A model generated the notes under the pieces. It did no database searches, was not told the DNA's origin, and saw nothing but the letters and a program-made list of their open reading frames with translations. This document shows, in pieces, positions 4,069 through 39,354 of a stretch of DNA of 41,024 nt. Made by a program: the position numbers and the translations under genes. This DNA comes from a virus. The stretch covers positions 1-41,024 of IMG/VR virus record IMGVR_UViG_3300008220_000017. One strand, written 5' to 3'. The first letter of the stretch is position 1, and every line of letters starts with the position of its first letter.

Positions 4069-4823
4069 TTGCCTGCCTCCACCAGCTTGTCATCTACGAC
4101 GCGGTACGGCGTGTTTGCCTTAATGCCGCCTTCGCCAACGTAGCCGGTTGCGATGCGGTAACGCTTGCCATCCCACCATTTGACTTGAACGGTGCCCCAG
4201 TCGCCAGCGGTCGCGGTGCCCCATTCGCCAGCGGTCGCGGTGCCCCAGTCGCCAGCGGTCGCGGTGCCCCAGCCGCCAGCGGTCGCGGTGCCCCTGTCGC
4301 CAGCGGTCGCGGTGCCACTGTAGCCAGCGGTCGCGGTGCCACTGTCGCCAGCGGTCGCGGTGCCCCAGTCGCCAGCGGTCGCGGTGCCCCTGTCGCCAGC
4401 GGTCGCGGTGCCCCTGTCGCCAGCGGTCGCGGTGCCACTGTAGCCAGCGGTCAAAAACGCCCCGACAATCGCACCCGTGATACCGGCATCCGACAAGAAC
4501 TGCGTTGCCGATAGCTGATCGCCACAGTGAACGACCTCGCAATATTGAAACTTGATCTTGCCGCTTAGATCGACAACCAGACCGGCTTCGTGTGCTTCGG
4601 TGATGTCGCACACCAGCCATTTGGCCTCGGGCGACCAGTCGAGATAGCTACCGCCACCCTCCCCATTCAGGAGGCCATGCAGACCGTTGCCGCAGTTTGC
4701 ATCGGCCTTCCAATCATGCGCTTCGCAACGCCCGCTATCGGGCCATTGAAAGCCACCATGGCTGCGAAGGTCGCTGTCGCAGGTGCGAAGGGCGTAGACG
4801 CGCTTTTGGGTCAGGGCGTTCAT
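4065..4823 (-). CDS. Octapeptide-repeat protein (DUF7666-like N-terminus)
   Basis: 252 residues. The N-terminal ~130 residues (MNALTQKRVYALRTCDSDLR, then NCGNGLHGLLNGEG and KWLVCDI) resemble small phage proteins annotated as DUF7666; that name is from memory of the pattern. Then come eleven 8-residue units of the form AG-D/Y/G/E-W/R/S-GTAT, followed by a beta-rich tail (VQVKWWDGKRYRIATGY). The repeat recalls the AGYGSTxT octapeptide of ice-nucleation proteins, which forms a beta-solenoid. Start ATG 4823 (MNALTQ) overlaps the upstream stop; the longer ORF to 4967 is rejected because it lies within the next gene. Function unknown. Confidence 0.75.
   Translation of the reverse strand: MNALTQKRVYALRTCDSDLRSHGGFQWPDSGRCEAHDWKADANCGNGLHGLLNGEGGGSYLDWSPEAKWLVCDITEAHEAGLVVDLSGKIKFQYCEVVHCGDQLSATQFLSDAGITGAIVGAFLTAGYSGTATAGDRGTATAGDRGTATAGDWGTATAGDSGTATAGYSGTATAGDRGTATAGGWGTATAGDWGTATAGEWGTATAGDWGTVQVKWWDGKRYRIATGYVGEGGIKANTPYRVVDDKLVEAGK
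4185..4448 (-). repeat. Eleven tandem 24-bp repeats
   Basis: Eleven uninterrupted units of 24 bp, each coding one octapeptide ending GTAT (the last ends GTVQ). Units differ almost only in the bases that code the variable third and fourth residues (D/Y/G/E and W/R/S). The array is in frame, so gain or loss of units keeps the reading frame. The reverse strand is also open through the array, which is a by-product of the repeat. Confidence 0.95.
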
Positions 4824-5005
4824 CGGCCCTTCTCCAGCGCGAGGTCGGCATCCTCGACAGCCTCCGCTGCCTTGAGCAGCAGGGCGCGCGCATCGCTTTC
4901 GGGATGCGTCACGGCCAGAACATCGTCGATCAGCTGGTAAGCGTCGGACAGGCGCGTGTCGGCCCATCCGCTGTCGGTGACTTTGGGGGAGATTGCCGCG
5001 CTCAT
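4820..5005 (-). CDS. Small hypothetical protein (61 aa)
   Basis: Not recognised. 61 residues, helical, ending in a run rich in Ala, Glu and Asp (LLLKAAEAVEDADLALEKGR). Start overlaps the upstream TGA as ATGA and its own stop overlaps the start of the octapeptide-repeat gene the same way. Confidence 0.65.
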   Translation of the reverse strand: MSAAISPKVTDSGWADTRLSDAYQLIDDVLAVTHPESDARALLLKAAEAVEDADLALEKGR

Positions 5006-5292
5006 GCTGCCACCTGTTCGGTGAGAGCGACCGCGTTCAGATCGGCGACGGGCGCGACCGGCTTACGACGCGCATTCATCGCGTGGAGGGCTTCGTTCAG
5101 CGCGGCGTTGGCGTTGTCACCGTAGCCGGAGCAGTTTGCAGAGGTAGGCTCGCCAATGCCGCCCCAGCTAAGCGTGACGACCATCCAAGGTCCGTCTCCG
5201 CCGCCACCCTCATAATAGCGGGTGATGCCAATGCCGGACAGGTCGTGCGCAGCTGCGATCGTATCGAGCGCGTCGTTGAGAGCGTTTTGCAT
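5002..5292 (-). CDS. First gene of leftward operon, hypothetical (96 aa)
   Basis: Not recognised. It is the promoter-proximal gene of the leftward operon, preceded by AAGGAGG and a promoter overlapped by repressor operators, the position of N in lambda. Nothing in the sequence supports an antiterminator role: it is not Arg-rich; it has a GGGGDGPWMVVTLSWGG beta-like stretch and a helical C-terminus. Confidence 0.72.
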   Translation of the reverse strand: MQNALNDALDTIAAAHDLSGIGITRYYEGGGGDGPWMVVTLSWGGIGEPTSANCSGYGDNANAALNEALHAMNARRKPVAPVADLNAVALTEQVAA

Positions 5293-5331: not shown

Positions 5332-5360
5332 TAGTTACACCCAGCGTAAGTAGGCGTCAA
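5332..5360 (-). promoter_or_regulatory. Leftward early promoter (PL-like)
   Basis: On the minus strand: -35 TTGACG (5360-5355), a 17-nt spacer, -10 TAACTA (5337-5332), followed about 40 nt later by AAGGAGG and the first leftward gene. The spacer contains an operator palindrome (5335-5349), the classic geometry for repression by steric block. Confidence 0.75.
5335..5349. promoter_or_regulatory. Operator palindrome, left site 1
   Basis: TTACAC-CCA-GCGTAA: a 15-bp imperfect palindrome with half-sites TTACRC either side of a 3-bp centre, lying between the -35 and -10 of the leftward promoter. Confidence 0.75.
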
Positions 5361-5368
5361 CAGATAAA

Positions 5369-5383
5369 TTGCATGGGGCGTAA
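5369..5383. promoter_or_regulatory. Operator palindrome, left site 2
   Basis: TTGCAT-GGG-GCGTAA, the same 15-bp arrangement with half-sites matching TTACGC and TTGCAT; 34 bp from the first left site, between the leftward promoter and the 3' end of the repressor gene. One half-site matches less well. Confidence 0.65.
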
Positions 5384-5384
5384 T

Positions 5385-5714
5385 TTAGGCTTCGTTCTGC
5401 ATGGCCTCGATAAGTGCCATCACCTGCCGTTGCTGCGCCTCATTGAGGCGATGGGTCAGGTCGATCACCAGCCCTTCCTTTGAGGGATCATTGCCCAGCA
5501 ATTCCCATGGCTCGCGGTCATAGACATGGGCTAGTGCCTCTATAACGCGCTCGCTATACGGTTGGCGCCCGTTCTCTAGGCGCGAGAGGCTGGCGGCGGT
5601 TGTAGGAAGCTTGGGATCGTCCAGTTCGAGCAAACGCCCGATCACCTGCTCTTGGGATAGCCCCAGGTGCTTCCGCCATTCCTTGAGATAGTGCCGATTT
5701 GCCATGTCGGACAT
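5385..5714 (-). CDS. XRE-family repressor (CI-like, no protease domain)
   Basis: 109-residue DNA-binding protein with an N-terminal helix-turn-helix of the XRE/Cro-CI type (LGLSQEQVIGRLLEL...AASLSRLENGRQPYSE, about residues 17-55) and a short helical C-terminus (LNEAQQRQVMALIEAM). It sits divergent from the Cro-like gene and between two operator pairs, the position of CI in lambda. It lacks the LexA/S24 peptidase domain, so RecA-driven self-cleavage is not expected. The ORF is open to 5813, but that part covers the operators; ATG 5714 (MSDMANRH) or ATG 5705 (MANRH) are the realistic starts. GATAAT lies 7 nt before the 5705 ATG, so a leaderless message is possible. Confidence 0.85.
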   Translation of the reverse strand: MSDMANRHYLKEWRKHLGLSQEQVIGRLLELDDPKLPTTAASLSRLENGRQPYSERVIEALAHVYDREPWELLGNDPSKEGLVIDLTHRLNEAQQRQVMALIEAMQNEA

Positions 5715-5718
5715 TATC

Positions 5719-5733
5719 CTACACCCAGCGTAA
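5719..5733. promoter_or_regulatory. Operator palindrome, right site 1
   Basis: CTACAC-CCA-GCGTAA, 14 of 15 bases identical to the left site at 5335, just upstream of the repressor start. Well placed for autoregulation of the repressor gene. Confidence 0.72.
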
Positions 5734-5750
5734 GCACTCCATGCGCCGGG

Positions 5751-5770
5751 ATGCAAGTTTGGGCTTGCAT
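5751..5770. other. Inverted repeat between the right operators
   Basis: ATGCAAG-TTTGGG-CTTGCAT, perfect 7-bp arms with a 6-nt loop. The right arm supplies the TTGCAT -35 hexamer of the rightward promoter. The left arm read on the minus strand gives another TTGCAT facing the repressor gene, so the element may be a shared divergent promoter core or a third binding site of different sequence. Confidence 0.55.
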
Positions 5771-5793
5771 CGCACTTACGCCCCATGTAAGTA
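5765..5793 (+). promoter_or_regulatory. Rightward early promoter (PR-like)
   Basis: -35 TTGCAT (5765-5770), 17-nt spacer, -10 TAAGTA (5788-5793), with an operator palindrome (5776-5790) covering spacer and -10. Transcription would start about 7 nt past the -10, that is at or next to the A of the ATG at 5800, giving a leaderless message. Confidence 0.65.
5776..5790. promoter_or_regulatory. Operator palindrome, right site 2
   Basis: TTACGC-CCC-ATGTAA, same 15-bp design as the other three sites, overlapping the rightward promoter. Confidence 0.72.
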
Positions 5794-5799
5794 GATGGC

Positions 5800-6003
5800 A
5801 TGGACTTAGACACCTACCTCAAGACCAGCGGCGTGAGCGGTGCGGCGTTTGCCGATCGCATCGGCGTCAGCGCGGCTTCCGTAACCCGCATCCGCAAGGG
5901 TGGGCAAAACATATCGCTTGAGCTGGCCCAGCGCATCGTGACCGCAACTGGTGGCAAGGTGTCGTTGGAAGCGTTGGCGTTGGCCGGAAAGGCCGCAGCA
6001 TGA
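5800..6003 (+). CDS. Cro-like HTH regulator
   Basis: 67-residue protein, first gene of the rightward operon and divergent from the repressor. A helix-turn-helix is visible at about 14-34 (AAFADRIGVSAASVTRIRKG), followed by SLELAQRIVTATGGKVSLEAL, typical of small Cro-type proteins (YdaS-like). There is no Shine-Dalgarno before ATG 5800 and the promoter places the message start there, so initiation is probably leaderless. The stop overlaps the next start as ATGA. Confidence 0.85.
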   Translation: MDLDTYLKTSGVSGAAFADRIGVSAASVTRIRKGGQNISLELAQRIVTATGGKVSLEALALAGKAAA

Positions 6004-6909: not shown

Positions 6910-7479
6910 ATGCGCGTTCTCGTCGCCTGTGAGTTCTCCGCAACCGTTCGGGACGCCTTCCGTGCCCGTGGGTTCGATGCCCGCGAAATTGTCGATTTTC
7001 CTGATTACGTCGCCACCGCATGTGGTCAAATCTTTAGCCGAAACCATCCAAGTGGTCCGTTGCGCTGGTTCAAGCCCCTCAAGGGCCATGCCGACAAAAA
7101 GGGTTATCGCGGACTTACGCTCTGCAACTCCGAGGGTCGCTTCCCCAAACGAGTGCACAGGCTTGTGGCCGAGGCATTCCACCCCAATCCACATAACCTT
7201 CCCTGTGTGCGGCACATAAACGGCGACTCTAGGGACAACCGTGCAAGCAACTTGGCATGGGCTACCTATGCCGAAAATGAAGCGGACAAGCGCTCTCACG
7301 GAACGTGGGATACGCGCCGTAACGGCAAGCTTGATGAAGGCCAGATTGCCGCCGCTCGAATGTGGGCTGAAGAGGGCTGGTCGCAGAAAGATATCGCTGC
7401 CGAACTCGGGGTTAGTCGTCCGACGATCAACAGGCTGCTTTCGGGCAAGACATGGGGGAATATCCCATGCGCGTCCTGA
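6910..7479 (+). CDS. HNH homing-type endonuclease fused to a methyltransferase start
   Basis: 189 residues with an unusual join. Residues 1-24 (MRVLVACEFSATVRDAFRAR...) match the start of the next gene (19 of 24 identical), so they come from a methyltransferase-like gene. From about residue 27 the sequence is an HNH homing endonuclease: a degenerate YVATACGQIFS strand, HRLVAEAF (83-90), then the metal-binding RHINGDSRDNRASNLAW (101-117), and a C-terminal helix-turn-helix (WSQKDIAAELGVSRPTINRL). Its last codons overlap the following ATG by 13 bp. Expression would use the start of the invaded gene. Nuclease activity is inferred from the family. Confidence 0.88.
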   Translation: MRVLVACEFSATVRDAFRARGFDAREIVDFPDYVATACGQIFSRNHPSGPLRWFKPLKGHADKKGYRGLTLCNSEGRFPKRVHRLVAEAFHPNPHNLPCVRHINGDSRDNRASNLAWATYAENEADKRSHGTWDTRRNGKLDEGQIAAARMWAEEGWSQKDIAAELGVSRPTINRLLSGKTWGNIPCAS

Positions 7480-8132
7480 TTGGCTGTGAGTTTTCGGGCG
7501 TAGTCCGTGAGGCGTTCCGCGCTCGGGGCTTTGACGCATGGTCATGCGACATTCTCCCCGCAGAGGATGGCTCGCCGTTCCACCTGCAATGCGACGTCCG
7601 CGACATCCTTACTGACGACTGGTTGCTCGGCATTTTTCACCCGCCATGCACACACCTGGCGGTAAGCGGAGCGCGTTGGTTCAAGGACAAGCGCGAGGAG
7701 CAGGAAGAGGCCCTGTCGTTCGTCCGCGCGCTTCTCGATGCGCCGGTCTGCCATATCGCGCTGGAAAACCCGGTCAGCATCATCAGTTCGCGTATCCGCA
7801 AGCCCGACTGCACCTTCCAGCCTTGGGAGCATGGTCACGGTGAGGTCAAGCGCACCTGCCTCTGGTTGAAGAATCTCCCGGCTCTGCGCCCCTCCAACAT
7901 CGTCGAAGGTCGCGAACCCCGCGTCCACAAAATGCCCCCTGGACCCGATCGCTGGAAGGAGCGCAGCCGCACCTTCCCCGGCGTCGCAGCCGCAATGGCC
8001 GACCAATGGGGGACTTTCATTCGCAATTCTCTCGACCACCGCAGCGACCGCCTCCCCGACCGGGACGGCAGCGCAGCGGCGGTTTCCGAGAGTGTCGTTC
8101 CTTTCCATGCAGTCGGAGATACCCATGCCTGA
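7467..8132 (+). CDS. C5-cytosine methyltransferase-like protein
   Basis: 221 residues. It shows the motifs of small phage cytosine-C5 methyltransferase-like proteins: MRVLIGCEFSG (cofactor loop), CDILPAE, the catalytic-type Pro-Pro-Cys in FHPPCTHLAVSG, and the ENP motif in ALENPVSII, then IRKPDCTFQPWEHGH and KRTCLWLKNLP. It probably methylates cytosine in DNA, perhaps for protection from host restriction. ATG 7467 lies inside the tail of the HNH gene, behind GGGGGA. The C-terminal ~30 residues overlap the next gene by 8 bp. See the finding on its duplicated 5' end. Confidence 0.82.
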   Translation: MRVLIGCEFSGVVREAFRARGFDAWSCDILPAEDGSPFHLQCDVRDILTDDWLLGIFHPPCTHLAVSGARWFKDKREEQEEALSFVRALLDAPVCHIALENPVSIISSRIRKPDCTFQPWEHGHGEVKRTCLWLKNLPALRPSNIVEGREPRVHKMPPGPDRWKERSRTFPGVAAAMADQWGTFIRNSLDHRSDRLPDRDGSAAAVSESVVPFHAVGDTHA

Positions 8133-39122: not shown

Positions 39123-39354
39123 GGTCTTGACCTTTCAAAAGGTGTTCGCCGCGTTCGATTGCATCCCGTGTAGCAACAAGATTTATTAGCGCGCCCATTG
39201 CCATATCGGAATTAAGGTTGCTGGTGTTCTTCGCGTATACGCGTAGCTCTCGCAACAGGCGGCCATCAATTGCGGCCACTATATCGGCGCGCTCTTGTTC
39301 TGCCTCCGTCAGCTTCTTCGCAATTCGTTCTACCTCTGTAGCCTCAATCGACAT
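39115..39354 (-). CDS. Small helical protein (79 aa)
   Basis: 79 residues, helical: EATEVERIAKKLTEAEQERA and then AMGALINLVATRDAIERGEH. AAGGAGAC precedes ATG 39354. Not recognised. Confidence 0.65.
   Translation of the reverse strand: MSIEATEVERIAKKLTEAEQERADIVAAIDGRLLRELRVYAKNTSNLNSDMAMGALINLVATRDAIERGEHLLKGQDHE

Follow-up and report, generated by a model that had tools for sequence, protein, structure and literature searches.

The small XRE-type repressor gene described here and the palindromes on either side of it probably form the immunity region of a temperate phage that works in the manner of the OL/OR system of λ, a reading which, judged from the DNA sequence, we put at about 85%. The stretch analysed (the window) covers one IMG/VR virus record from end to end (41,024 bp); its genes include those for an integrase, a RecT-like protein, SSB, terminase and portal. 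The repressor gene is codirectional with the left operon, which continues downstream of its first gene to the RecT-like and SSB genes, and the Cro-like gene is divergent from the repressor gene (Table 1). The repressor start that matches the conserved geometry described below is the ATG at 5705, which gives 106 aa, and not the in-frame ATG upstream at 5714. A λ-type plan around a small XRE repressor and a divergent Cro-like gene had been proposed in an earlier, sequence-only reading of the window, and it is supported by conserved positions and co-varying sequences in dozens of related phages.

Table 1. Features of the immunity region (positions from the repressor ATG are given as negative numbers; promoters are predicted)
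Feature	Position	Strand	Site sequence	Sequence in window coordinates	Remarks
First left-operon gene, under predicted PL	5002..5292	-			no family match; GGAGG ribosome site
PL	5332..5360	-			-35 TTGACG 5360-5355, 17 bp, -10 TAACTA 5337-5332
OL1	5335..5349	-	TTACGCTGGGTGTAA	TTACACCCAGCGTAA	within PL spacer, overlaps PL -10; placement equal in 11/11 class-I loci
OL2	5369..5383	-	TTACGCCCCATGCAA	TTGCATGGGGCGTAA	upstream of PL -35; 34 bp from OL1, centre to centre
Small XRE repressor, 106 aa	5385..5705	-			HTH_31/HTH_3 and short C-terminal helix, without S24 domain
Repressor promoter, PRM-like	5713..5741	-			weak -35 slot TGGAGT 5741-5736; -10 GATAAT 5718-5713
OR3	5719..5733	-	TTACGCTGGGTGTAG	CTACACCCAGCGTAA	-28; between -35 slot and -10 of repressor promoter
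OR2, degenerate middle operator (candidate)	5742..5756	-	TTGCATCCCGGCGCA		-51
PR, for cro-like gene	5765..5793	+			-35 TTGCAT, 17 bp, -10 TAAGTA
OR1	5776..5790	+	TTACGCCCCATGTAA	TTACGCCCCATGTAA	-85; within PR spacer
Cro-like HTH protein, 67 aa	5800..6003	+			heads rightward operon

The class-I operators have as their consensus the 15-bp palindrome TTACRC-NNN-GYGTAA. When the window was scanned with TTACRYNNNRYGTAA and up to one mismatch, it held four matches, exactly the palindromes at 5335, 5369, 5719 and 5776 that had been noticed earlier, against 0.41 expected; none of 100 shuffles reached four. The sites fall into two sub-types, each side holding one of each: those at 5335 and 5719 are identical in all 15 bases (TACACCCAGCGTAAG), and those at 5369 and 5776 are inverted copies with 14 of 15 bases equal. 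An operator-like site at 39159-39173 (TTGCATCCCGTGTAG; PWM 14.5, a level at which about 0.2 or fewer sites are expected in 41 kb) is distant from the immunity region and was rejected as probably due to chance.

The sequence-only reading had counted two sites per side. The count stands for the left side; on the right, OR1 and OR3 do lie between the repressor and Cro-like genes as proposed, but a third, degenerate site there, OR2, had been overlooked, and the plan is therefore more than a plain two-per-side arrangement. We describe it as OL1-OL2/OR1-OR2-OR3, in which OR2 is a candidate site. Its left half-site is good and its right half degenerate, and its full-site PWM score is poor (-6.8). However, the half-site TT[AG]C[AG][CT] is found exactly at -51 in the window and in 9 of the 11 relatives of class I, L015 and L016 having it at -75, and the chance of finding it at a fixed position is about 0.0015 per locus. 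A perfect 8-bp inverted repeat at 5750-5771, GATGCAAG-TTTGGG-CTTGCATC, is formed by the half-site of OR2 together with the -35 box of PR.

The predicted PL and PR have a common design, namely, O2, then a TTGAC/TTGC -35 box, then O1 within the 17-bp spacer. O1 begins 5 nt past the -35 box and its last TAA overlaps the -10. The two left sites are thus placed in and beside a leftward promoter, as had been suggested, to the extent that the promoter is correctly predicted. A strict sigma-70/terminator scan called no promoter in the region, and since PL and PR are missed by it, their assignment rests on the conserved geometry. In every one of the 30 listed loci, part of which had been selected by a de novo repeat search, OL2 and OL1 have a TTG[AC] -35-like box between them. 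At the repressor promoter, OR2 ends at the -35 slot and OR3 fills the spacer, placements that would agree with the positions for self-activation and shut-off in λ.

Both the repressor and the cro-like mRNAs are probably leaderless. Across 61 representatives of the family, the DNA ahead of the repressor ATG shows a -10-like signal at -13..-7, with A(-11), A(-9) and T(-7), and no Shine-Dalgarno signal; in 48 of 66 representatives the start codons of cro and the repressor are 92-96 nt apart. It is on these three features that the inference of leaderless transcripts is based. In the window, the predicted transcription start of PR coincides with the cro-like ATG at 5800, and the predicted leaderless start of the repressor mRNA is at 5705.

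The arrangement suggests how the region could work. The 106-aa repressor would bind the 15-bp palindromes, presumably in dimeric form. With O1 placed in the spacer over the -10 of each lytic promoter and O2 just upstream of the -35, repressor bound to the pair would shut off PL, and with it the left operon with its RecT-like and SSB genes, as well as PR, from which the cro-like and replication operon would be transcribed. OR2 borders on the weak -35 slot of the promoter from which the repressor gene itself would be transcribed, and repressor bound there probably helps the polymerase. OR3 would serve the opposite end: at high repressor levels, or when bound by Cro, it would switch the same promoter off.

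Conservation of the layout was followed through relatives of the repressor. Matches in the phage database had 31-42% identity and came from Rhizobium phages, PBC5 and a Synechococcus phage, in which the repressor gene is likewise flanked by repeats. Single-sequence repressor searches of genome and viral contigs gave no match, and alignment-based scans were therefore required; these yielded 97 further loci. The 103 repressor homologues, the window included, were reduced to 66 representatives at <80% identity. In the closest relatives the sites again read TTACRC-NNN-GYGTAA, and the right ones are placed, relative to the repressor ATG, at -85, -51 and -28; OR1 and OR3 of the window fall exactly at -85 and -28. 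Their left pair is 32-35 bp apart and is found either directly past the repressor stop or 0.7-1.7 kb further. Eight class-I phage genomes (~333 kb in total) each have 2-3 exact palindromes, every one of them close to the repressor, whereas a reversed-pattern control had no match in the same genomes.

The wider family was examined with a PWM-free test, in which each of the 65 representatives to which it could be applied was scored for a 15-mer upstream that had two similar 15-mers downstream, these being separated by any spacing of 16-80 bp. Real loci scored 36.7 on average vs 31.95 for shuffles, and 35 or more was reached by 56 of the 65 representatives vs 4 of 130 shuffles, although the loci are related and such shuffle statistics overstate independence. 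The other 9 representatives had scores of at most 34, such as the shuffles also gave. The best downstream spacing was 32-36 bp in 58% of the loci and the best upstream position -90..-80 in 55%, each vs 8% of shuffles. This three-site test supersedes an earlier pairwise test of upstream and downstream 17-mers, which was only moderately informative because its null was built from homologues with common operators. In distant relatives the geometry is kept and the sequences differ, as with GTACGCTAGGCGTAC in L100 and GTGAATGTCATGAAC in L056; L002 and L004 have TTCAGTCA repeats in the same geometry. The relatives thus strongly support the λ-like OL/OR reading: the layout is shared by dozens of related phages, most of them alphaproteobacterial and each with its own version of the operator.

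Two further features were seen on the left side of some relatives. Extra genes lie between the repressor and OL, in the position of rexAB in λ: they encode unknown proteins in L008 (3904-4425) and L010 (4021-4479), a PAPS-reductase-like protein in L017 (4320-5501) and an Arc-like protein in L056 (4187-4453). A possible third left site lies 20-21 bp before OL2 in L010 (+1105), L011 (+1005) and L012 (+1025), positions being relative to the repressor start; its score is weaker in two of the three.

The repressor is small and unlike CI, as had been noted at the outset: it has an N-terminal XRE-type HTH, and none of 57 family members matched a peptidase S24 or oligomerisation C-terminal domain. Without an S24 domain, self-cleavage of the RecA type is not expected of it. 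The predicted fold is an HTH followed by a C-terminal helix (pLDDT 88, pTM 0.66). Foldseek found no match to this model at E <= 0.001, nor a convincing one for its C-terminal part; whole-fold matches to SinR and EspR were weak (TM ~0.54, E ~0.01 (0.012)). In sequence, the repressor is similar to the HTH domains of SinR, DdrO and PezA.

These properties bear on whether the two sides communicate. OL-OR looping, which the sequence-only reading had raised, is possible. A variant of the main reading, which we consider slightly more probable than not, is that the sites are operators but each side acts alone on PL or PR without a loop, the two-sidedness meaning only that two lytic promoters need one repressor. 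The distance from OL to OR ranges from ~440 to 2,240 bp across loci with no helical phasing (Rayleigh p 0.16-0.63), the missing C-terminal domain is the one with which CI makes the looping octamer of λ, and O1 and O2 flank each -35 box, so that local occlusion would be sufficient. However, λ loops over 2.4 kb without strict phasing, and the nearest solved folds, distant as they are, include the oligomeric SinR and EspR.

Another question is whether the repressor and Cro read the same sites. Their recognition helices in the window are alike (TAASLSR in the repressor, SAASVTR in the Cro-like protein). At the four positions which we take to be equivalent to the DNA-contact residues Q28, Q29, E32 and Q33 of the 434 repressor, a phage's repressor and its Cro have the same residue at 2.19 on average, vs 1.18 after shuffling (~11 sd), a value reached in none of 5000 permutations but inflated by phylogenetic relatedness. 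Such co-variation is the pattern that two proteins with common operators would show. Alternatively, the sites might serve one regulator only, the repressor or Cro, the other binding elsewhere or at a single site. There is a precedent in PY54, whose Cro binds only OR3 (PMC4488713), and the presence of two site sub-types, one of each per side, could be read in the same way. We regard this as improbable, given the helix agreement far above chance, and the intergenic regions contain no other prominent repeated palindrome. It is more improbable still, and by a wide measure, that the roles are swapped, with the 67-aa protein holding lysogeny and the 106-aa protein acting as lytic regulator: the gene order is λ-like, the 106-aa gene, flanked by the operator sets, is codirectional with the left RecT/SSB operon, and the 67-aa gene is the one at the head of the right operon. 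That the palindromes are due to chance, or are leftover promoter repeats of no regulatory meaning, can practically be dismissed, since although a loose scan of the window with three mismatches gave chance-level numbers (50 matches vs 44 expected, which makes it uninformative), the strict scan gave four sites vs 0.41 and the positions are conserved in distant phages with different site sequences.

The proposed λ-like immunity region shares with λ, 434 and P22 the order and directions of the genes, more than one site on each side, an O1 that here falls within the predicted PL and PR, a middle right site (here a candidate) beside the repressor promoter (centre at -44 here, -42 in λ), a leaderless repressor mRNA, which is predicted here, and a common operator specificity of repressor and Cro, suggested here by helix similarity. 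It differs in that the repressor has 106 aa without the S24 C-terminal domain, O1 and O2 are 34 bp apart rather than 24 as in λ, OR2 is degenerate, the cro mRNA is probably leaderless too, and OL and OR can be as close as ~440 bp.

Other known systems resemble it in part. The C repressor of Rhizobium phage 16-3 has two operators per side, oL1, oL2, oR1 and oR2 (PMC12429752). Phage 16-3 is an alphaproteobacterial temperate phage; it was not among the tblastn matches of the repressor (E <= 1e-3) in a phage collection that may not include it. The operators of 16-3 are of the ACAA...TTGT type, in contrast to TTACRC...GYGTAA here. The telomere phages PY54, phiKO2 and N15 have a λ-like cI-cro region, but with a single operator in PY54. 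The cI and cro mRNAs of PY54 are leaderless, as mapped by RACE (PMC4488713). Among XRE regulators of the SinR, DdrO and EspR type, SinR and DdrO are similar in HTH sequence, and SinR and EspR weakly in the predicted fold of HTH plus C-terminal helix, but these are chromosomal regulators and not phage switches.

The plan is thus already known from λ, and two operators per side have been reported for 16-3. What appears to be new is its pairing with a family of small, S24-less repressors, in a fixed grid and with co-varying sets of operator, repressor and Cro; we found no description of the operators of this family in the open-access literature. The pairing suggests that the λ OL/OR plan can do without the two-domain repressor CI. 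More tentatively, and at slightly less than even odds, a large, alphaproteobacteria-centred group of phages may carry out the whole λ scheme by means of a ~106-aa repressor that has no CI C-terminal domain: two lytic promoters controlled as a pair, activation of the repressor's promoter from OR2 and its shut-off from OR3, and perhaps looping. Many immunity groups would then be formed by joint change of operator, repressor helix and Cro helix within the fixed grid. Dozens of diverged immunity regions with fixed operator positions and varied sequences make a natural data set for the code between XRE recognition helices and operators and for changes in immunity specificity, and cooperativity, self-activation, looping and induction without an S24 domain become testable. 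In unannotated phages, counting from the repressor ATG, operators can be sought at -85, -51 and -28, and also as a downstream pair 32-35 bp apart around TTGAC.

Two observations concern genes near the immunity region. Beside the left operon, at 4185-4455, there is a tandem repeat in a minus-strand ORF, with repeated GTATAGD(W/R/S) units. To the right, the arrangement at 6910-8132 resembles the insertion of an HNH sequence with duplication of a gene start: the ORF at 6910-7479 begins with MRVLVACEFSATVRDAFRARGFDA and then becomes HNH-like, and the N-terminus of the gene at 7452 nearly repeats the start of that ORF.
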